A stretch of 30,836 nt of DNA, from IMG/VR virus record IMGVR_UViG_3300022413_000033, positions 1-30,836 of that record. One strand, written 5' to 3'. This document shows, piece after piece, positions 3,615 through 25,895 of the stretch; the first letter of the stretch is position 1; every line of letters starts with the position of its first letter. A program made the translations under genes and the position numbers. The notes under the pieces were generated by a model, which was not told the origin of the DNA, ran no database searches, and worked only from the letters and a program-made list of their open reading frames with translations. Source of the stretch: a virus.

Positions 3615-3629
3615 GATAAAGGGGGAGTG

Positions 3630-4544
3630 ATGGCAAAGCTAAGAGGGGCGGTTGGCAGGACAGATATCCAGCATATGCGAGTCTCAGACTTGCATATCGA
3701 TGAGGCGCAGAATGGGCGGCATTTTCGGCCATCGGAATCAGATGTGCGAACACTGGCGCTCGACATCATGGCGCATGGGCAACTCCAGCCTGTTGTCATC
3801 TATAAGATTGCAGGAGATACCTATGCGCTTGCGGCAGGGCAAACCCGCTGTCGTGCCATTAATCTAATTAACTCCGATCAGGATCTGAGAGGAAAGGCTG
3901 GGCTTGCTGAAGGACAGGAATTACCGGTTAAGTGCGTAACCGTGCGGGCAAACGAGGAAGATGCCCTCCTCATAAATATTGCCGAGAATGCACGACGCCA
4001 TGCTACGTCGCCGATTGACGATGCGCATAATCACGAGAAATTGAGGCGATTTGGATGGACGAATGCAAAGATTGCCGATCTCTATGGGGTGTCCGCAGCG
4101 AGAGTGAGTCAGCTTTCCAACCTTCTCGCGCTTAGCCAAAAGCATCAGCGGCTCGTGCACGACCGTGCATTGAATCTCACTAACGCTATCAACCTGGCTT
4201 CACTCATGCCTGAAGAAAGAGAAGTTATCGTCGAGCAATCATCCGTCGATAACAACGGTGGCGTAGCCCCTGAAGTCGACAATAAAGCGGTCAAAGAAGC
4301 AATTGTCGAGGCCGACCCTGACAAGAAAAAGCCCACCTTGAAGCAGATCAAGGACGGGCTGAAAGAGATGATCGAAAAAGAAAATAGTTGGGAATACTAT
4401 GGTGGCGCAATAAATTACAGAGAGTTGATTCTAAAAAATGTCTTGTATTACATAGAAGGGCAAATAGGGGGAGAAGAGCTCGATATACGACTCGCATATC
4501 CATTTTTCGGCGAGGAACCCCCGAAAGCGGAGCGTGTATCATGA
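3630..4544 (+). CDS. ParB/Spo0J-like DNA-binding protein
   Basis: This 304-residue protein has the ParB N-terminal domain: residues 17-30 (RVSDLHIDEAQNGR), GQTRCRA at 70-76 (the usual arginine-rich GERRxRA motif in variant form) and IAENARRHATSPIDDA at 117-132. A helix-turn-helix follows at about 143-165 (WTNAKIADLYGVSAARVSQLS). ParB proteins bind centromere-like DNA, and many phage members act in regulation instead. No ParA is present. ATG 3630 is chosen; GTG 3627 is adjacent and the ribosome site AAGGGGG is close. An inverted repeat just upstream is a candidate binding site. The end overlaps the next gene by ATGA. Confidence 0.8.
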   Translation: MAKLRGAVGRTDIQHMRVSDLHIDEAQNGRHFRPSESDVRTLALDIMAHGQLQPVVIYKIAGDTYALAAGQTRCRAINLINSDQDLRGKAGLAEGQELPVKCVTVRANEEDALLINIAENARRHATSPIDDAHNHEKLRRFGWTNAKIADLYGVSAARVSQLSNLLALSQKHQRLVHDRALNLTNAINLASLMPEEREVIVEQSSVDNNGGVAPEVDNKAVKEAIVEADPDKKKPTLKQIKDGLKEMIEKENSWEYYGGAINYRELILKNVLYYIEGQIGGEELDIRLAYPFFGEEPPKAERVS

Positions 4545-6690: not shown

Positions 6691-8724
6691 CTAACACCTA
6701 AACTTGATTTTCGTAAGGTTTTCTGTCCTGGCGGTTGGGCTCATCTCCGTTATGCCGATGATGACGCAAACCCTGGGGACCTGAAACCGAAACCTGGGAA
6801 ATTGAAATAGGAACGTGTCACCGATTCGGAATTCCCATGAGTGATCTAGCACAATCATCGAATACACGTCACGGAATGCCTGCTCTTTGTGCCGAATCAA
6901 GTCGCCAGCAAATCGAGCGTCCGCCTCTTGCAAATAGTTGGTGTTGATCGTTTTAGTCTTGGCGCTGGGAAACCGATCGTTGATGGCATCCACATACGGG
7001 CCGTGGACTCGGTAGCGATACCCTTGCGCACTCAATGTTTTTGTGATTGGATCGGCAGCCCCTAAAAAGTCGCTTTCGGTGAGCACCGTATACGCTTTGC
7101 TGTGTCCGATTCGGTGCTGACTACCTGGCTTGGGAGGGGGTTGTCTTTGTAGCGTCGTGTTTTCCTGGATATCATCCTGGGTCAGTGTCATCAAGGGAGT
7201 TTCGCGTCCCAGGGTACGCATAAAAATGCGATTCAACCGGTTGATGCCAATGATACCCACTGGGGAGACCAACTCTGTCAATACCTCTCCAATCGTGCGT
7301 TCCTCTGTGACGTAGATACCGGCTTTGCCAGTATAAAATGCTTTATGAGCAGTAAACGAGTCCAAATCCAAGTCCGTATCTGGTAGGCCTTGCTCAACGA
7401 TCCACCGGCAAATATCGCTGACTGTTTCCTCTTCGACTATGCCGGATTCGCCGCGTGTGGTAAATGCCATTACTCTGCCACCGGGTGGAGCAGAGAGGCG
7501 GAAAACGCCTTGCGATGTATCAGAAAGGACAGCCGCATCATCAATTTCCTGCTGCGTGGGCACCCAATCCTCTATGTCACCACTAAACGTCGACCCCGTT
7601 GTATAAAAAACCCCTCCTTGCGTAAGTGCGTCCATGTTCCTCATGTCGCCATCGTGTACCTGGTATAACAACAGACTGCGGTCAATCAGTCGAGGCTCTA
7701 CCGCATTCGGAAACCCCAGACATAGGGGCTTGGGCTGCCCTTCGACTTCGCTATCTCCATCCAAGCCCCCCGTCCCGCCGTAATGATTCGGCTGAATGGA
7801 TTGTTTGAATAAAATGCCGGCATCTCGAATCCGTAACGAGATAAAATCTTCGTCCCAGGTGGCGGATTCAATTTCGCCACGAATGGCAAACGGATAAATG
7901 GCGGGCACAGCATCCGTTGACCCAATACGGACGGTAAAGGGCCTGGAATCCCAATCCTGATCGGTCAAGAAATCGAGTTCGCCGTCATGAATGGAGATTC
8001 GAATAAGGCCAATTGTCGGCTCAACGAGTCCTCCGAATCCGTCTTCGGTGAGTGGCGCTTGAGTATCCACATCTCCCATCTCAATGAGATCGGAAAGATA
8101 TGTGCGCCCGTTATAAAACGCCCAGGAATGCCCATTTGAAATGGTGATGCTCTGTGCGCGCTCCGGCTCGTCTCGATCCAGTACAACGCTGATTATATTA
8201 CTGGAATTGATCGTCAATCTGTAAATGCTATGCCCATCTTGCCCGATGAGTTCGAGATAAGGGCCAACATTCCAGGCAAGATCTACGCCTGCCAATGTAG
8301 ATGTTTGTGCGGGATCCCCTGTCCCAAACGCGACTAAGGACGGGGTTGAAAAAAACGACGAGGTAATAAATCGTGTCCCTCCTAGCTCATCTGTCATAAT
8401 GAGATAAAGGGGAGGCGGGGCACCTCCGATGTCTAACCACCGAATGTCTAAAGGACTGACAGGAGGATAGCCGGGTGTCGTAAAAGGGTTGGGCTCAATG
8501 TAACTCGTTAATGTGCCGCTTAGATTGACATAATAATAAGCAGATTCGACGGCGAACGCTGATGGAGTAATTCGAGAAAATGCCAGCCGAGTGGTTTGCA
8601 GAACCGGGTCAATCTCCATCAAGATGGCTTGGCGCTGATCAGTCAAGGGATTCCGAAAATCAAATTCCGGATCCCCAAACACATTTTTGAGGAAAATGTC
8701 TTCCGAGAACGGATTGAGCGCCAT
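6691..8724 (-). CDS. Tail hub / tail-tip protein candidate
   Basis: This 677-residue protein starts at ATG 8724, overlapping the tape-measure stop (TAATG). Its beta-rich N-terminal part has many short strands with YYYVNLSG-like segments. The C-terminal region (FAGDLIRHKEQAFRDVYSMI, then LDHSWEFRIGDTFLFQFPRF and VCVIIGITEMSP) resembles the closing domain of phage tail-tip hub proteins, where a flow-defining domain ends with RxGDxxxxxxPRF and VxGI. Position after the tape measure is the usual place for distal tail and hub genes. It would attach the tail tube to receptor-binding proteins. No enzymatic motif is visible. Confidence 0.6.
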   Translation of the reverse strand: MALNPFSEDIFLKNVFGDPEFDFRNPLTDQRQAILMEIDPVLQTTRLAFSRITPSAFAVESAYYYVNLSGTLTSYIEPNPFTTPGYPPVSPLDIRWLDIGGAPPPLYLIMTDELGGTRFITSSFFSTPSLVAFGTGDPAQTSTLAGVDLAWNVGPYLELIGQDGHSIYRLTINSSNIISVVLDRDEPERAQSITISNGHSWAFYNGRTYLSDLIEMGDVDTQAPLTEDGFGGLVEPTIGLIRISIHDGELDFLTDQDWDSRPFTVRIGSTDAVPAIYPFAIRGEIESATWDEDFISLRIRDAGILFKQSIQPNHYGGTGGLDGDSEVEGQPKPLCLGFPNAVEPRLIDRSLLLYQVHDGDMRNMDALTQGGVFYTTGSTFSGDIEDWVPTQQEIDDAAVLSDTSQGVFRLSAPPGGRVMAFTTRGESGIVEEETVSDICRWIVEQGLPDTDLDLDSFTAHKAFYTGKAGIYVTEERTIGEVLTELVSPVGIIGINRLNRIFMRTLGRETPLMTLTQDDIQENTTLQRQPPPKPGSQHRIGHSKAYTVLTESDFLGAADPITKTLSAQGYRYRVHGPYVDAINDRFPSAKTKTINTNYLQEADARFAGDLIRHKEQAFRDVYSMIVLDHSWEFRIGDTFLFQFPRFRFQVPRVCVIIGITEMSPTARTENLTKIKFRC

Positions 8725-11700
8725 TACACGACCTGCCTGCCAAGTAGGTTCTCAAGTAAGTTTTGGAGTTGTTGGCTCCGTTGTGCTTGCTGAATTCCTA
8801 GCCTGATCAATGCGTCAATGCCCTCTGCAGCATCTTCACCAAATCCTTCAACCCTGAGGAGGGACTGCAAAGAATTTTCGCCCAGCAACAATTGCCTCTC
8901 CTCTCGCCTGGCTTGTGCCTCCAGGCGCCGGCGTTCGTCCTCAACCGCTTGTTGCTGTTGGTCTCTCACACCGATCAAGGCAGCCTCGATACGGTTTTCA
9001 ATATCAAAAAATCCTGACCCACTGCCGAACTGACCCCTGCCGATGTCTCTAAATTGGGTGGCCGCAGCAAGAATGTCTTGGATGTTCCCGCTTGTGATCG
9101 CGGCTTGAAATTGCTCCTCGGCCGCACTAAGTCGAACCGTTCCAGGCTGTTCCGGTGCGGTTCTGAAGCTTCCGATTAACCGATTGATGGACTCAATCCC
9201 TTGGATTTGGCTGGAGAGTTGCCGGTCGATGTCTTCAATAAGGCGCTCTCTGATCACCTTGGCCTGTGCTTCATAGCTCGATTCAAGATCAAACGTGGCG
9301 AATCCCAATAGTTCGGCGGCATCACGCAAATTGAGAAACGTTTCGGTAAGATTGAAAAGCTCTTGACCTGCCGCAGAAAGAGGATTGCCTGCCCCGACAA
9401 AGGTTGAGAAGGCATCCGCGATATCTTGGATAGGTGAACGGTTGCCACCTGAGATGAGTTGCAGAGCTTCCTGTGCAGCAAACGCGGCCTTCGATTGCGC
9501 CTCCAACCGACGAAATAAACCGGAGTCAATTAGCCCTTCCGATAATAATTGGGCAAACTGGTCAAGTTGATTGGCCACCTCTCTGCGTGCGGCTGCGAAT
9601 GGATTGATCAAATCTTCTAACGTATTTAAGGCGCTTTGTCTGGCCTCTCTCCGCAGAGCATTCCCCAAGCTAGCAAATGAACTAAAGAGGTCGTTTGTTT
9701 GCCTGCCCAAATCAAGAGCTTCGCCAAGCAAATTCTGAAATCTGATTTGCAGTTGAGCCAACGCTCGCCCTGTTTCGGACACATCCTGTGCCGATGCGAC
9801 AAACTCTTGAAATCCTCCCTCTGCTTGTTGCCGTTGTGCCCTCTCCTGCTCTCTGGCTGCTTCACGAATGCGTGCGACTTGTTGTTCAAATGATCTCGTC
9901 AGATCGGATGTTCCACGACCCAATTCTTGCGCATCTGTCAGCAAGCGACGAAAATTGAGGCCCAATTGCTCGATTTGCCGGTCTACTGGGCTGAGATCGC
10001 GTCCCGCTCTCACAAACGATTGGAAGGTTTGCTCTTGAGCCTGTTGTTCAGCCAGCGCAGCCGCATTGATTTGGCGTTGCCGATCGCGGAAGGCTTGTTC
10101 GAGGTCGGCCGTGCTTCGACCCAGTAAAAGAGCTGAGGTGCGTAAGCGTGCGTATTCCTCTCGCAACGCTTCGTGGGCAAGCTGGGCTTGAGAGATATCT
10201 CGTGCAGAATCGATAAATGAAGTGAAAAACGATTCGATCTCGGCACGCGGATCTTGGTTTCCACCGCCTTGGATAATGTTTAGGACGCGGTCAAATAACG
10301 ATGCACTCTCGGCATCTATGCCGGCGTTGGCATCCGCTAATTGCTGCGCGAGTTGCTCACGTTCCAACACGTGCAAACGCTCAATTCGAATAAGATTCGC
10401 GTTAGCATCACGTGCTTCCTCGATCTCGATCCGTTGTCGTTCGCGGAGTGCAGCGCGGGCCGCTTCAGCGGGATCCTCGATTTCAAGAATGCGCTGTTCG
10501 ACGTTTTTGTCGATGGCTTCACCAATTTGGGCGATCTGACGCGCCAATTCTCCGCTGAGCGCCCCGGTGGCAATCCCGAATTCTTCGGCACGGGTGATCA
10601 TGGCACCGAATTCGTCTTTCAGCCGTGCGATCGCTTCCGCCGATTGCGTTTGTGGCCCTTGCTCAATCTCATCGATCGTGCGCAGGATCGCCAGCGCATC
10701 ATTCACCCGCCGCTGGAGCGCCTGCACACCGGCAGCAGACTGGTCCCCGGCCGTCGTTGGCACGACGTTTGCCGCCACTTCTCCGCCAGCCAGTGTACCC
10801 ACGATCGTGCGCAGACGCTGCACGATGACTTCTGAGAGGGCTTGGTCCGTCTCTGCATTGGCTTCCCCCACGATGACGCCACTCACCGGGTTTTGCAGAC
10901 TGGCCGCGACAATCCGTCGTTGGCGCTCGGTGATGGCAGATGCAATCGTGCGGTCCAGTTCGGCGATGACGCCTGAAACTTCCGCTGCATTCGCCCTCTT
11001 GGACTGCTCATCGATAAGGCTGATGAAACCGAAGGCACCCCTGACGAGCGCGTCGTCCGATGGCCGGGTCGTGGGAGGAGCAGCCGTGGTTTGCACGGCA
11101 AACCGGCTTTGCTTCGGCCCGCCGCTCAGCACGCCAATCAGATCTTGCAGCCCTTGTACGGGATCGATTGCACCGGCCGCAATTCGCCCCGTCGTCCCTC
11201 CACCGAATAATCCGATATTGAAATCTCGCAACAATTCAAAAAACCCTGACCCCGCAAGCCCCCCGATTGCCGCGCCCCCCGCTGCACCTACTGGCCCTCC
11301 GGCTTGGAACCCTAATGCGGCGCCGGTAGTGGCACCCCCCACAATGTCATTGACAACGGAAGGGATTCCCTGGCCACGTAGCAGGTGAGAAGCAACGAGA
11401 ACGCCACCGAGGGCAAAAGCTGCATTACGGCCTGACGATTCTGTTTTTTTGAGTTCTTCCGTGGTCTTTTTGACCTCGTCCCCGAGAGATTCGACGGACT
11501 CTTTAGAGTCATCTACTGCGCCTGTAAATGAATCTCTAAATGAATTTGCGAGGTTTTCAAATGCCGGCTGGATAAAAAAAGCAGTGGTGAACTCTGCCGC
11601 TGCCCGGTGAAAAATATTGACAATCTCGTCGGCAATATCCCCAACATCGTCTAACTGCCCACTGAGTGCATTGGTGATGGAATCAGCCAAAGCGTCTTGT

Positions 11701-13532
11701 ACGTTTTGAGCTGCTCGCTCAAATGGCCGCTGGATGGCCTCGGCTAAATCCTTGGCTTCTTTTATCGCTCTTTGCGTCCGCGCATCAATGATTCTAAATT
11801 GTCTGCGTGTTAGCTCCGCTTCCGCTTGTTCAACAATCCGCAAGCGGTCTGCCTGAAGTTGTTCCTCTTTTGCAATTTCCGACTCAGATCGGTCACTTCC
11901 TCCTGCAGCCAGCAATTTTTGCCGGAGTTCAATCAATTTGCGCTGCGCATTAATAAATTCTCTTAATTCAACTTCACCTAGATCTCTGAATTTTGCAGTC
12001 GCTCGACGAATTTCCAGGTCTGCTTGTTCTTCGTTTGCTTTCCTACGAATTTCACCAAGCGCTTCTAGGCGTTCTTCTTCAAGTTTTTCTTGTTGAGCAA
12101 TCGATTTCTTGAATATATCTATGCGAGTTTTTGCTTCTTTCTCAGCCTGTTTTTCGAGTTCCTTATCTGCACCGGAATTTTTAATTGCATCTCTAATGAA
12201 TGTAGCGAGCTCTTCATACTCTTTTCTTACGCGATCAGTACTGGATTCGACAGCCTCTTCAAAATCATCAGTGATAAAGCTAGAACTTTTGTTAAGGTTT
12301 CTAAATACATCATTTAATTGTTCATTTCTACCTATGATCGAATCTATGACGTTGTTTACATTCTCTAACTGGTCAGTAAATCCTAAAACCAGTTTTTCGT
12401 TTTCTAGGTTTACTCCAAAGATAACCTGTGCAAGCGACTCAGCCGCTTTTTGTGTTAACCCTAAATCATCGATAAATTTTTGAGCTGCATTTGTCTGTAA
12501 CTCTACCAATTCAGCTCTTACACTAGTAAAATTCAATGATTCTTTAAACTTTGTGACTGCGTTACTGATTTTATCAAAAATGCCAAGAGTCCCGGTCCCA
12601 AGGCTTACGAGTTGATCAACAAAGGTTGTAGTATTTTGTAGAGTCTCAGGGGAGGCGAGTTCTGAGGTGGACTTCGACAAAGCACGGATCGACTCATTTA
12701 GCCGCGTCGAGGCCAGTGCGCCCACACCAAACTGGCCAGACGTCTCCTGTAGGACGCTGATGAGTGCAGCAAAGGCAATAGGTGTACTCTGTGAGGCTTC
12801 ATTGGCGACCTCAGCGAATCGATCTTTCAGACGACCCATAACCAGCAAAAGGGCGTCGGCTGGGATTTGTCCTTGCTCCAGGGCTTTGCGAAGCTCAGAT
12901 CCACTGATCCCGAGCGACTGAGAAAGTTCGCGAAAAATGGGAATGCCTGCCTCAGCAAACTGATTCAGCTCTTCTGTTTTAATGCGATTTTGCGTGAGGA
13001 CCTGATTCGCTGCGATGAGGGCGCGTCTATATTGGTCCGTATTAAGCCCCAAAGCCGTAACCGTCGTTCCCAGTCCCTCAAAGATAGTTTTGGCACCTAG
13101 TCCCTCAAGTCTCGTCCCTCTCGTATTCTCCGTCATTTGTGCGAAGGCGCGGGCACCGGAGATGATGTCCGTGCCAAGTCGCAAGGACTGCTGACGCACG
13201 AAAGCGTAGGCTTCGCCGGCCGCTTTGGCGCTTCCGGTTGTCGCCCGTAGCGTTCGATCCACCGAGATGAGCTGTGTGCCTAGCGTCAGGCTTTGGCGTG
13301 CAACAGCGCCTAGCCCCAAACCAATCAGCACATTGCGCAGAGACCGAAACCCTCCGGCCATGGATTGAGTGCTGGCAGCCACACGTTTATTTGATTTATC
13401 CAGATTATCGAGAGATTTCCCTGCCCGTTGCCCAAAGTCTTGAGCTACGCGAGTGGCTTGCTGGAGATCGCGGCGAAACCCCGAGATGTCGGCTCGAAGT
13501 GAAGCAATGAGTGCTTGTTGGGTTTCCGCCAT
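8724..13532 (-). CDS. Tape measure protein
   Basis: At 1602 residues this is the longest gene. Residues 1-60 are helical (ISGFRRDLQQATRVAQDF), followed by a typical tape-measure N-terminal domain (SLTLGTQLISVDRTLRATTG, then RIKTEELNQFAEAGIPIFRE) up to about residue 240. Glycine-rich hydrophobic segments in the middle (GGATTGAALGFQAGGPVGAA) could insert in membranes during DNA entry. Long coiled coils and four diverged repeats of about 70-75 residues fill the C-terminal part. With the usual 0.15 nm per residue the tail would be roughly 240 nm. ATG 13532 has AAGGTG upstream. Unlike lambda, an opposite-strand cassette separates it from the G/GT gene. Confidence 0.92.
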   Translation of the reverse strand: MAETQQALIASLRADISGFRRDLQQATRVAQDFGQRAGKSLDNLDKSNKRVAASTQSMAGGFRSLRNVLIGLGLGAVARQSLTLGTQLISVDRTLRATTGSAKAAGEAYAFVRQQSLRLGTDIISGARAFAQMTENTRGTRLEGLGAKTIFEGLGTTVTALGLNTDQYRRALIAANQVLTQNRIKTEELNQFAEAGIPIFRELSQSLGISGSELRKALEQGQIPADALLLVMGRLKDRFAEVANEASQSTPIAFAALISVLQETSGQFGVGALASTRLNESIRALSKSTSELASPETLQNTTTFVDQLVSLGTGTLGIFDKISNAVTKFKESLNFTSVRAELVELQTNAAQKFIDDLGLTQKAAESLAQVIFGVNLENEKLVLGFTDQLENVNNVIDSIIGRNEQLNDVFRNLNKSSSFITDDFEEAVESSTDRVRKEYEELATFIRDAIKNSGADKELEKQAEKEAKTRIDIFKKSIAQQEKLEEERLEALGEIRRKANEEQADLEIRRATAKFRDLGEVELREFINAQRKLIELRQKLLAAGGSDRSESEIAKEEQLQADRLRIVEQAEAELTRRQFRIIDARTQRAIKEAKDLAEAIQRPFERAAQNVQDALADSITNALSGQLDDVGDIADEIVNIFHRAAAEFTTAFFIQPAFENLANSFRDSFTGAVDDSKESVESLGDEVKKTTEELKKTESSGRNAAFALGGVLVASHLLRGQGIPSVVNDIVGGATTGAALGFQAGGPVGAAGGAAIGGLAGSGFFELLRDFNIGLFGGGTTGRIAAGAIDPVQGLQDLIGVLSGGPKQSRFAVQTTAAPPTTRPSDDALVRGAFGFISLIDEQSKRANAAEVSGVIAELDRTIASAITERQRRIVAASLQNPVSGVIVGEANAETDQALSEVIVQRLRTIVGTLAGGEVAANVVPTTAGDQSAAGVQALQRRVNDALAILRTIDEIEQGPQTQSAEAIARLKDEFGAMITRAEEFGIATGALSGELARQIAQIGEAIDKNVEQRILEIEDPAEAARAALRERQRIEIEEARDANANLIRIERLHVLEREQLAQQLADANAGIDAESASLFDRVLNIIQGGGNQDPRAEIESFFTSFIDSARDISQAQLAHEALREEYARLRTSALLLGRSTADLEQAFRDRQRQINAAALAEQQAQEQTFQSFVRAGRDLSPVDRQIEQLGLNFRRLLTDAQELGRGTSDLTRSFEQQVARIREAAREQERAQRQQAEGGFQEFVASAQDVSETGRALAQLQIRFQNLLGEALDLGRQTNDLFSSFASLGNALRREARQSALNTLEDLINPFAAARREVANQLDQFAQLLSEGLIDSGLFRRLEAQSKAAFAAQEALQLISGGNRSPIQDIADAFSTFVGAGNPLSAAGQELFNLTETFLNLRDAAELLGFATFDLESSYEAQAKVIRERLIEDIDRQLSSQIQGIESINRLIGSFRTAPEQPGTVRLSAAEEQFQAAITSGNIQDILAAATQFRDIGRGQFGSGSGFFDIENRIEAALIGVRDQQQQAVEDERRRLEAQARREERQLLLGENSLQSLLRVEGFGEDAAEGIDALIRLGIQQAQRSQQLQNLLENLLGRQVV
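9220..10258 (-). repeat. Four tandem protein repeats in the tape measure
   Basis: Diverged repeats begin near 10240 (FFTSFIDSARDIS), 10029 (FQSFVRAGRDLS), 9818 (FQEFVASAQDVS) and 9415 (FSTFVGAGNPLS). Each continues with L..F..LL..A.ELGR.T.DL..SF and a charged helix. The third copy carries an insertion of about 65 residues before the fourth. Repeats in tape measures usually set tail length, so copy number here may be a length-tuning element. Confidence 0.6.
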
Positions 13533-13541
13533 GTTCGCACC

Positions 13542-13570
13542 TTGACGTATACACCTATTAGGCGTATAGT
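13542..13570 (+). promoter_or_regulatory. Consensus-like promoter with embedded palindromic operator
   Basis: TTGACG (13542-13547), a 17-bp spacer and TATAGT (13565-13570) form a strong sigma70-type promoter reading into the ribbon-helix-helix gene. The spacer and most of the -10 form a 21-bp near-perfect palindrome (13548-13568, TATACACCTATTAGGCGTATA) in which nine of ten base pairs match. That is the expected place for an autorepressor. The transcript would start near 13577, at the GGAGG ribosome site, leaving almost no leader. Confidence 0.7.
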
Positions 13571-13588
13571 GTAAGTGGAGGTAAGAAA

Positions 13589-13756
13589 ATGATACGAGTC
13601 AATATCTGGCTGACTGAGACCCAGATTTTCATGCTTGAGAACATTGCTCAGGTCAGCGGTTACTCACGATCTGAACTCATTCGCCAGGCCATTGATGCCT
13701 GGTTCGAGGAAAAGGAGAAAAATCATGAGCACGATCATGATGCATCCCAACCATGA
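13589..13756 (+). CDS. Ribbon-helix-helix (CopG/Arc-type) regulator, 55 residues
   Basis: The sequence MIRVNIWLTETQIFMLENIA, then SGYSRSELIRQAIDAWFE, is a textbook ribbon-helix-helix fold: a beta strand with alternating residues, helix A, a turn with GYSRSE and helix B. The tail is His/Asp-rich (NHEHDHDASQP), partly because it is read in a second frame by the overlapping next gene. GGAGG lies seven bases upstream of ATG. The protein is shorter than a typical gene-calling cutoff. It most likely binds the palindrome in its own promoter. It stands on the strand opposite to all surrounding virion genes. Confidence 0.8.
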   Translation: MIRVNIWLTETQIFMLENIAQVSGYSRSELIRQAIDAWFEEKEKNHEHDHDASQP

Positions 13757-13934
13757 CCAAACCGACACAGAGCCTGAACATCCAGTTCCTGTCGTCATTA
13801 CTGATCTTCGGATGACAAACAAAAGAATCATCTATCGGATGGTTCAATTTGCGCTGTGTGCAATTCCCGCTGCGGCGATTTTAGTCGGCATTGCCGTCAT
13901 CGTATGGTTGGGCATCTGGGACATGTTGAGGTGA
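13725..13934 (+). CDS. Small one-span membrane protein paired with the RHH regulator
   Basis: I place the start at ATG 13725 (69 residues), with AGGAG about seven bases upstream; it overlaps the regulator gene by 32 bases in another frame. Residues 1-35 are polar and acidic (HPNHDQTDTEPEHP), and residues 41-66 form one membrane helix (VQFALCAIPAAAILVGIAVI). The pair shares one promoter. Membrane proteins in phage morons often alter the host envelope or exclude other phages, and RHH-plus-small-membrane-protein pairs can also be toxin-antitoxin systems. Neither role is shown here. Confidence 0.6.
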   Translation: MSTIMMHPNHDQTDTEPEHPVPVVITDLRMTNKRIIYRMVQFALCAIPAAAILVGIAVIVWLGIWDMLR

Positions 13935-13946
13935 ATGTTGCCATCT

Positions 13947-14977
13947 TCAACAAGAAAGCACACCGTTAGACTGGCCATTTTTGTTCATCTGCTCATTTTC
14001 TTGATTAATCAGTCTTTGTTTTTCAATCGACTGGTTAATCAACTGGTCTAGTGATAACTGTCGTGCTTCAGAGCCTAACTCAGTGTCGAGAAAATAAGGA
14101 CGTTTCTCCGGTGGTGTGTTCCAGTAGGCCTCTTTTTGCTTATAGAGCAGAAACCAAAGTCGGTCAAATATTCGTCCATATTCATTCGTACTTTCAAGAT
14201 ATTTTTTATAGGGCTCGCCTAAGATGGTGTAGGCGAACGTCGCCTCGGCAAACAATGCAGTGGTCTTTTCTAACGGGTGCGCCCACGTTGACCCCGTCGT
14301 CTCGGCTTCTGTCCATTGCTCGTAGAGCTGTCTTGGGTATCCGAGGGCGGCGGCTGCTTTCCCTCAAACTCCTCCAAATTCCCCACCTCCGCTTTGATCG
14401 AGAGGTTTTGAATGTACTCCGTAATGTCCGCAAGTTTGCTCGTCGGTATATCGAGTTGATAGAGCGATTCCAGGGCAGCATCTTTGTCACAAACCGAAGG
14501 ATCTGTTGCCGACCAAACAAGACGATCTCCGGTGACGGACTTTAAATCACCGTCAAGACCGTAAAGTAGTTTCTCATATTGGATCCGAATGGATGACTCT
14601 AACCAAGCGGTTCCGTATGCAAGGTATTCAGCTGTCCCTGTATCGAGCACTTCTCGTTGTAGTTCCTCGTCCCATATGCGCGGGACGAATTCATCCGAGG
14701 CAGCCTCGTTCTCATGGATCTCACTGAGCTTTTTGGCTCCAATGGACTTTACTGGAATAGGTAGAGTTTTCCAGGTGTCCCCGTTGTCTAGCGTCCACTC
14801 CAAGCAAAAAACCCCCTTGGAAGCAAAGGTAAACTGGCTTGGATCCAGCACGAGTCGCTTTTTGACATCGGATGTCATCGCATGTCGTAGCTGCTGCGCC
14901 TCGGGGGTATCGACATGCGTAAACATGGCATCGACGGGAGAGGTCGCATGGTTTGCCGACTGCTCATTCTCGCTCAT
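13947..14977 (-). CDS. Tail assembly chaperone fusion (GT-like) made by -1 frameshift
   Basis: Ribosomes that slip back one base at GGGAAAG (14357-14363) leave the frame of the upstream protein after Lys207 and continue AAAALGYPRQLYEQWTEAET without a stop to position 13947, giving about 343 residues. The downstream frame has no ATG; its only start would be a TTG at 14255, well inside the open frame, so a fusion is the natural reading. Frame geometry is exactly -1. In lambda, gpG and gpGT chaperone the tape measure during tail assembly using the same heptamer. The neighbouring tail tube and tape measure genes match this order. Confidence 0.85.
14270..14977 (-). CDS. Tail assembly chaperone (G-like), unshifted product
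   Basis: This 235-residue protein lies directly after the tail tube gene, where lambda G lies. It has a helical C-terminal part (SKLADITEYIQNLSIKAEVG) and a low-complexity basic end (KPRRRGQRGRTR) that is replaced in the frameshifted product. The function, coating the tape measure and recruiting tail tube protein, follows from the family and gene order; sequence similarity to lambda G is not evident by eye. Confidence 0.75.
   Translation of the reverse strand: MSENEQSANHATSPVDAMFTHVDTPEAQQLRHAMTSDVKKRLVLDPSQFTFASKGVFCLEWTLDNGDTWKTLPIPVKSIGAKKLSEIHENEAASDEFVPRIWDEELQREVLDTGTAEYLAYGTAWLESSIRIQYEKLLYGLDGDLKSVTGDRLVWSATDPSVCDKDAALESLYQLDIPTSKLADITEYIQNLSIKAEVGNLEEFEGKQPPPSDTQDSSTSNGQKPRRRGQRGRTR
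14357..14363 (-). other. Programmed -1 frameshift heptamer GGGAAAG
   Basis: On the minus strand the zero-frame codons read GAG GGA AAG, giving the slippery heptamer G-GGA-AAG, the one used by phage lambda in gene G. Slippage permits re-pairing at GGG AAA. The next -1 codons stay open for 136 residues. I see no clear downstream pseudoknot. Confidence 0.85.
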
Positions 14978-14989
14978 TAAAAAAACCCT

Positions 14990-15613
14990 CTATGTTGTTT
15001 CCGTCCCGGCCGAAAAATCAGCAGCTTGGGTATCTATTTGTCCGTAGCATAGACAGCTTAAGTTGAAAAATACCCCGCCCGGGACCAGTTCATGTGTGAA
15101 ATTGACGGTTGCGCATCCCAACAGCCTATGCACAAAATCGACGCCTGATGGTGCATCTGCAGGGGCAGTCAATTTCACTTCTACATTGAACAAATGATTG
15201 ATCTGACGTGCGACCTTTGGACCGGGGACGGTAATTGCCACTCCCTCTGAATTCTCCCGAGTCCCAATATCAGCCACGGCGACAGGTACCCAAACCGTAG
15301 GTGTCGTGCCCACATTCCAAGTCGCCAAACCGCGTGGATTTCCAAACGCATCGAGTTGCCAGATTTTTTCCGATTCCAATCGGAATCGGAGATCGAATGG
15401 GATCGGTTGCATGATAACGGTTTCGTCCACCACAATAGTAGCCACATTCCCGTTCACAAGCTTTTCACCACCGGCTACAATGGTGGTCTCCGGATCCGGA
15501 GGCATTCCCGGCAACGTGGGCAGATCATAAAATGTGACCGTGATATAATCCGCCGTCGTTTGACCATTGACCACGCGTATAGCAGCTGTCGTGTGTGTGT
15601 TAACAGAGGTCAT
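14990..15613 (-). CDS. Major tail (tube) protein candidate
   Basis: ATG 15613 is chosen (207 residues, MTSVNTHTTAAIRVVNGQTT) because GAGGAG lies just upstream; a longer frame to 15655 would add 14 residues overlapping the previous gene. The protein is beta-rich and soluble, with no membrane or coiled-coil segments. Its size and its position between the tail terminator candidate and the G/GT gene are those of the tail tube protein. No conserved motif is decisive. Confidence 0.65.
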   Translation of the reverse strand: MTSVNTHTTAAIRVVNGQTTADYITVTFYDLPTLPGMPPDPETTIVAGGEKLVNGNVATIVVDETVIMQPIPFDLRFRLESEKIWQLDAFGNPRGLATWNVGTTPTVWVPVAVADIGTRENSEGVAITVPGPKVARQINHLFNVEVKLTAPADAPSGVDFVHRLLGCATVNFTHELVPGGVFFNLSCLCYGQIDTQAADFSAGTETT

Positions 15614-15626
15614 CTGCCACTCCTCA

Positions 15627-16151
15627 TCAATTCTGAATAATAGTCTCAGCCACATGTCGCATCGTGGCCGATAGGTTGATTTGCGTGATGCCCAGCTCGG
15701 CTTCCGGACTGAGTCCAGTTAGCACCGGAGGTGCTAAACTCACTAAAGCGGACAGAACAGGATTTCCTCCGGTGTTGTAGTCGCGAATAGGTACGGCCGC
15801 ATCGGGTGGCATGAAAATCTCTTTAATGTTGGTCATGACGGTCCACAGAGAATAGAGCGTGCCCCCACCTCCGCTTTTACGGGCATCGTTCTTTTCAAAG
15901 CCATTGATATTTGTCAGGACCTCATCGATATAGCCATGCCGCCCTGACCCCGTCACCTGAATGTCCCCCTGTGGGCCAAGCTCGATCACGGAGACCTCTA
16001 CCCACTGCGCCGGCTTGGTTTCAAGGTCTAAAGGTTCACCCAGCTGGTAATAAACCGTTAGCCCTAACCCCATTGACACATTTGTGTCTACATAGGCATA
16101 GATCGATTTAACGATATTGTCCATGCGTGACTCAGGCGCGATCGTCGGCAT
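15627..16151 (-). CDS. Tail terminator / tail completion protein candidate
   Basis: This 174-residue protein begins MPTIAPESRMDNIVKSIYAY and has a compact alpha/beta pattern (VDTNVSMGLGLTVYYQLGEP, WVEVSVIELG). Length, order (after the gp10-like protein, before the tail tube) and the short N-terminal helix are typical of the tail terminator that caps the tube. The call relies mainly on gene order. TAGGA precedes the ATG at a suitable distance. Confidence 0.5.
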   Translation of the reverse strand: MPTIAPESRMDNIVKSIYAYVDTNVSMGLGLTVYYQLGEPLDLETKPAQWVEVSVIELGPQGDIQVTGSGRHGYIDEVLTNINGFEKNDARKSGGGGTLYSLWTVMTNIKEIFMPPDAAVPIRDYNTGGNPVLSALVSLAPPVLTGLSPEAELGITQINLSATMRHVAETIIQN

Positions 16152-25414: not shown

Positions 25415-25802
25415 GCTTGATTTCTCTATCTACGGATTCATCCCAAAATTCCGCGTCGATGGTTTCGGGGACTTGCGCGATGCCGCTATCGAGTCTGTGG
25501 GTCACGTCAACTTCCACTTCAGCCGTGTATCCCCGATGCTTGCCCTTCGTGCTCAAGTGATATTTGATGGCGATGATGTTGCCCTTCTCAATCTGTTTCA
25601 TCAGTGCCGTTTCACTCTTATCCAGAGCACGCCCATTGGCTCCATCAAGTGCCTCTTTCACACTTTCATATCGATCAATATAATTGTAAACCGTCTTTGG
25701 GTCACAGCCCAACTTCTCGGCTGCCATATAGACCATACCCCGAGTTATCGTCAATGCTTCAATGACTTGCTTTGCGGTATAGCGTTGTCTCCTAATTGCC
25801 AT
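25368..25802 (-). CDS. terS: Terminase small subunit
   Basis: ATG 25802 (MAIRRQRYTAKQVIEALTIT, 144 residues) is chosen; the longer frame to 25853 would run through a perfect hairpin and lacks support. Residues 8-45 form a helix-turn-helix (RGMVYMAAEKLGCDPKTVYN), typical of DNA-recognising small terminases, followed by a helical oligomerisation region (KSETALMKQIEKGNIIAIKY) and an acidic end. It overlaps the large subunit by 47 bases. The ribosome site is weak (GGTGA). Confidence 0.75.
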   Translation of the reverse strand: MAIRRQRYTAKQVIEALTITRGMVYMAAEKLGCDPKTVYNYIDRYESVKEALDGANGRALDKSETALMKQIEKGNIIAIKYHLSTKGKHRGYTAEVEVDVTHRLDSGIAQVPETIDAEFWDESVDREIKHVQIADGTEGEVERQ

Positions 25803-25837: not shown

Positions 25838-25861
25838 GCGCATAGTTAAACAACTATGCGC
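25838..25861 (-). promoter_or_regulatory. Perfect 10-bp hairpin in the terminase leader
   Basis: GCGCATAGTT and AACTATGCGC form a perfect stem with a 4-base loop. The candidate transcription start is at about 25860, so the hairpin would be the very 5' end of the packaging mRNA. There is no T-run, so it is not a standard terminator. It could protect the mRNA end, act as an operator, or be a packaging recognition site. Confidence 0.55.
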
Positions 25862-25866
25862 CTATA

Positions 25867-25895
25867 TCTATATTCTGTAGCCGTTTTGAGATCAA
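25867..25895 (-). promoter_or_regulatory. Candidate leftward late promoter
   Basis: On the minus strand TTGATC (25890-25895), a 17-bp spacer and TATAGA (25867-25872) have four of six matches each. The -35 lies in the inverted repeat TGAGAT-CAAG-ATCTCA (25887-25902), a possible operator. It precedes the terminase-portal-capsid operon. Confidence 0.35.

Follow-up and report, generated by a model that had tools for sequence, protein, structure and literature searches.

A conserved reverse-strand gene pair encoding a probable ribbon-helix-helix autorepressor and a small membrane protein at the tail chaperone-tape measure junction of a phage

The window analyzed here is the 30,836-bp IMG/VR virus record IMGVR_UViG_3300022413_000033, which is part of a genome. 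Its virion genes occupy the minus strand from about 5.9 to 30.8 kb. A 393-bp cassette at 13542-13934 is on the plus strand, opposite in direction to all of the virion genes, and lies between the gene for the chaperone extension GT (ending at 13947) and the tape measure gene (starting at 13532). The features at this junction are as follows.

13542-13570, plus strand: sigma-70-type promoter TTGACG-17-TATAGT, by match to the consensus
13548-13568, no strand assigned: 21-bp operator-like palindrome within the spacer of the promoter (9 of 10 pairs match)
13589-13756, plus strand: 55-aa ribbon-helix-helix (RHH) protein, probable autorepressor, by Pfam match and predicted fold
13725-13934, plus strand: 69-aa single-span membrane protein, by hydrophobicity and comparison with the relative G001
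13538-13543, minus strand: Shine-Dalgarno sequence AAGGTG of the tape measure gene, read from the sequence; arrangement shared with G001
8724-13532, minus strand: tape measure protein gene, 1602 aa, PF20155; 75% identical in G001
13947-14977, minus strand: tail assembly chaperone G with its GT extension, -1 slip at GGGAAAG (14363-14357)

There is no slack at this junction. The stop codon of the cassette is 12 nt from that of GT, the two cassette genes overlap by 32 nt, and the -35 box shares 2 bases with the Shine-Dalgarno sequence of the tape measure gene, as is also the case in G001 (IMGVR_UViG_3300022413_000001, 58,954 bp). The neighbor had been taken for G/GT in the original prediction, and this identity is supported by a lambda-type slip site, GGGAAAG, at 14363-14357 on the minus strand, which would shift the frame by -1 from G into T; G001 has the same heptamer at the corresponding place. 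The accompanying statement that lambda-like phages have no gap here does not hold generally, since HK97 carries gp15 between G/GT and the tape measure gene. The cassette itself, proposed as a reverse pair of an RHH gene and an overlapping one-span protein gene with their own promoter and spacer palindrome, is borne out: all the parts are located and are conserved in G001.

The RHH gene is preceded by the Shine-Dalgarno sequence GGAGG at 13577-13581. Its product scores 24.0 bits against Pfam RHH_1 (PF01402), above the gathering score of 20.5, which places it in the RHH_1/CopG family, and it also matches phage repressor families in PHROGs. The AlphaFold model (pLDDT 82) has predicted helices at residues 10-23 and 27-51, and the β strand is not assigned in this monomer model. 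The nearest solved folds are ParG, AtaR, and ParD, with a Foldseek E value of only 0.1. The protein is 62% identical to its G001 counterpart, with about 70% identity in the core, and the last 11 residues are hardly conserved. Beyond the core there is a tail of 11-16 residues that is not conserved between the two phages, and there is no evident second domain because the protein ends soon after the core.

The membrane protein gene starts with ATG at 13725, ends at 13934, and has the Shine-Dalgarno sequence AAGGAG at 13712-13717. The product contains a single hydrophobic span (KD-19 maximum 2.75, residues 42-60), which is preceded by a variable N-terminal tail rich in acidic residues, histidine, and proline, and is followed by a very short C-terminus. 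Positive charges (Arg/Lys) precede the span, suggesting that the predicted orientation is likely N-in/C-out. The protein is 55% identical in G001; conserved residues cluster in the span and at its cytoplasmic edge, and a juxtamembrane stretch PVxVVIxDxRM is retained. In the searches of profile libraries the membrane protein matches no profile and no known toxin family, and it has no PADLOC match.

In G001 the cassette is found at the identical junction, in the same gene order, and on the same strand. The nucleotide comparison gives pN 0.23 and pS 0.54 for the RHH gene and pN 0.26 and pS 0.77 for the membrane protein gene. As pN is well below pS, both genes are, on this comparison, under purifying selection. 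The conservation in G001 of the place, order, strand, both genes, operator, and promoter indicates that selection maintains the two genes as a genuine pair with an operator of their own. G001 was the only relative recovered when viral contigs were scanned with the RHH protein, the membrane protein, the tape measure, and two hub-side tail proteins, singly or in pairs, a scan in which near copies of the window may have been omitted. Two scans of genome contigs, with membrane protein and hub alignments, gave no match and hence no host and no empty site, and nothing useful came from tblastn, run against phages with both cassette proteins and against plasmids with the RHH protein. G001 is probably close to complete, since both its ends match one window gene.

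The synonymous-codon identity with G001 is unusually high in the RHH gene (13589-13723) and is raised as well, to 66%, over codons 1-50 of the tape measure gene. At the conserved residues within RHH positions 1-45, 23 of 28 codons are identical as well, compared with 46% in the tape measure gene; across four other shared genes, all 2,339 windows of the same length (45 codons) fall below the RHH value. The excess could reflect an additional signal in the DNA of this block or a more recent exchange of the block than of the sequence around it. RNA structure does not clearly account for it: around the start of the membrane protein gene, mRNA folding is only marginally stronger than in shuffled sequences (z -1.35 and -1.61).

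The promoter and the palindrome of the window, each taken alone, are unremarkable. The promoter matches the sigma-70 consensus at 10 of 12 positions, and the window contains five sites at 10/12 or better against 4.75 expected; three 21-bp palindromes as good as that at 13548-13568 occur in it. The cassette promoter of G001, TTGACA-17-TATAAT, matches at 12/12 and is the sole perfect match in its 59 kb (0.0 expected from shuffles). G001 has five 11/12 sites, compared with 0.2 expected at 11/12 or better, and one of them directly precedes an HTH_3 regulator gene. G001 thus appears to rely on host sigma-70 promoters at other places too.

The consensus of the operator core over both phages is a perfect palindrome, TACGCCTAWTAGGCGTA, and the window and G001 cores each depart from it at a single, different position. 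Neither genome contains a second copy, even when 3 mismatches are allowed. Because the operator occurs only once per genome, the RHH protein is probably a dedicated autorepressor of the cassette. At the level of sequence, the locus thus has what is expected of an autoregulated RHH operon, a conserved palindromic operator inside its own promoter. Such a circuit is described for the plasmid RA3, whose RHH protein MobC binds an imperfect palindrome between the -35 and -10 boxes and thereby represses its own bicistronic operon (PMC4175270). The cassette resembles the MobC operon in that an RHH dimer would repress its own operon via a spacer palindrome, and differs from it in the downstream gene, a relaxase in RA3, and in the plasmid transfer context. 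Of the self-regulated unit proposed originally, the promoter, the operator, and both genes are conserved, and the autorepression is probable.

A strong host-type promoter with an operator in its spacer most simply suggests a circuit of burst and then silence. On genome entry the cell would contain no RHH protein yet, so that host sigma-70 RNA polymerase would fire the near-consensus promoter, and the bicistronic mRNA would give the RHH protein and the membrane protein via overlapping translation. RHH dimers would then fill the palindrome between the -35 and -10 boxes to shut the promoter, which would presumably also spare late transcription of the tail genes head-on polymerase collisions. Once made, the membrane protein would remain in the inner membrane, where it may keep related phages from delivering their genomes, probably by acting at the tape measure/inner membrane step. 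The parts of this scheme differ in strength: the promoter, operator, and gene pair and their conservation are established from sequence, the autorepression is quite probable, the early timing is somewhat likely, and the exclusion function, suggested by position and precedent, is tentative. Taken as a whole, a self-limiting reverse expression cassette for an early membrane factor, most likely one of superinfection exclusion, is our best model, held with less than even confidence.

Exclusion is the leading guess because of two known systems and the inheritance of the cassette. Like the cassette protein, the superinfection exclusion protein gp15 of HK97, a moron product, is a small one-span membrane protein whose gene sits precisely at the junction of the frameshifted tail chaperone and tape measure genes, and its exclusion depends on the tube/tape measure region of the incoming phage (PMC10883804). 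Unlike the cassette, gp15 is encoded on the late-gene strand with an annotated terminator after it and no regulator, and its span is N-terminal, whereas that of the cassette protein is towards the C-terminus. Mnt of P22 is an RHH protein. In the immI region, or "ant moron", of P22, which also includes arc, mnt and sieA, the latter encoding an inner membrane exclusion protein, lie on the strand opposite to the late genes and are inserted among virion genes (PMC8022706; also PMC2629481). The P22 block differs from the cassette in its site between genes 16 and 9, in the own annotated promoter of sieA, and in its antirepressor genes. Finally, the cassette has kept its association with the tape measure gene, whereas its other neighbor, the chaperone, and the gene beyond it are only 30-36% identical to those of G001.

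The idea of an exclusion factor, also raised in the original prediction, is therefore plausible from the junction of HK97 gp15 and the logic of P22 sieA/mnt, but it gains nothing from similarity: direct comparison of the cassette proteins with gp15, SieA, Mnt, and Arc shows none, and the membrane protein resembles no profile. The differing position of the gp15 span, the lack of a recognized lysogeny module, and the number of members, two only, also weigh against exclusion. A more specific version is speculative and rather doubtful, namely that the cassette is an RHH-capped immediate-early exclusion unit back-to-back with the tape measure, its promoter overlapping the ribosome-binding site of that gene, so that a phage would pass on the exclusion factor together with its target specificity as a single unit. 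If this were true, such inheritance would act as a built-in label barring phages that inject with a like tape measure. Should the exclusion model hold, one 393-bp unit would unite the HK97 junction exclusion gene and the P22 reverse RHH-plus-exclusion block, so far separate. It would also suggest that entry-blocking membrane proteins recur at the chaperone/tape measure junction, where new exclusion factors of uncultured phages could then be sought.

The membrane protein may instead serve in counter-defense, neutralizing a host membrane-linked defense or remodeling the envelope early, with the RHH protein capping the burst. Aca proteins cap the strong early promoters of acr-aca operons through palindromes (PMC9410906), and a near-consensus promoter, a palindrome in the core promoter, and, in the model, an operon-encoded repressor give the cassette the same layout; this function would also fit a phage without a recognized integrase. 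However, the regulator of the cassette is the first gene, its partner is a membrane protein with no apparent link to an Acr, and the locus has no known Aca family beside an Acr, the Aca families described in PMC9410906 being HTH and not RHH and PADLOC giving no match. We consider this reading unlikely.

Lower still in probability is a toxic or addiction pair, in which a membrane-depolarizing peptide would be kept low by the RHH repressor. Many toxin-antitoxin operons are arranged in this way, with an RHH gene that follows an autoregulatory palindrome and precedes a small overlapping gene, and the RHH protein weakly matches RelB/VapB and EndoAI-antitoxin profiles, but the NCBIfam antitoxin matches are far below their cut-offs. 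Type II RHH antitoxins bind the toxin through their C-terminal tail. The short, unconserved tail of the cassette protein offers no candidate neutralizing domain, and the partner has no match to a toxin profile. The earlier suggestion of a toxin held in check by the regulator is thus disfavored in the type II sense.

The cassette might also act on the late operon: the RHH protein, bound immediately upstream of the tape measure start, or antisense RNA running into GT/G, would tune the ratios of tail proteins, the membrane protein being secondary. The operator is situated in the tape measure leader, where the -35 box overlaps the Shine-Dalgarno sequence, and no plus-strand terminator-like site is found from 13934 into G. 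This proposal leaves the purifying selection on the membrane protein unexplained, and we regard it as improbable. A structural, assembly, or lysis-timing membrane protein, such as a holin-like one, that happens to be backwards is very unlikely: both members carry the gene and it has stayed with the tape measure, but such a protein would be expected in the late operon and not under an early-type autorepressed promoter opposing it, and it matches no holin profile.

The cassette has its own promoter, as a moron would, but its description as an optional insert lacks support: it is present in each of the two phages, and the scans recovered neither a cassette-free relative nor an empty site. It may rather be a standing part of a small phage group, which comes close to the refuting condition named in the original prediction, although two members are too few to decide. 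Nor is expression from a prophage supported, as neither a tyrosine integrase domain (PF00589) nor a serine recombinase domain (PF00239) was found in either record, the window being a fragment. HTH repressor-like genes do occur in these records. At the left end of the window, ORF6N plus T5orf172/MUG113 antirepressor-like and ParB-like proteins are encoded on the plus strand at 459-1190 and 3627-4544.

Several other differences and resemblances between the two phages were observed. A diverged or swapped island at 13947-15655, comprising the chaperone and the gene at 14990-15655, tube-like by position, is flanked by blocks at 75-82% identity. The head genes at 17.0-25.3 kb of the window have no protein match in G001. 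A noncoding stretch at about 25852-25893, just upstream of the gene beside the large terminase, is nearly identical in G001 and could be a late promoter or a packaging/operator site. At 25657 a further antisense promoter-like site, which has a positional match in G001, was rejected because it falls within conserved coding sequence and the two phages share no antisense frame there. G001 also encodes a ROS/MUCR-family regulator at 41327-41803 (L010 1327-1803; PF05443, E 8e-33).

Pattern matches to a promoter plus operator were found in three further viral contigs (L014 7975-8003, L015 2143-2171, and L016 3538-3566). They were rejected as relatives, the palindrome being of the CCCAATGGG type and no RHH relative being found. 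In these unrelated phages, consensus promoters carry CCCAATGGG palindromes in the spacer, and the genes downstream encode a small membrane-like peptide, a serine-recombinase-like protein, and a ParB-like protein, respectively; a small HTH-like gene follows in L014 and L016. The CCCAATGGG palindromes are possibly a shared HTH operator type.
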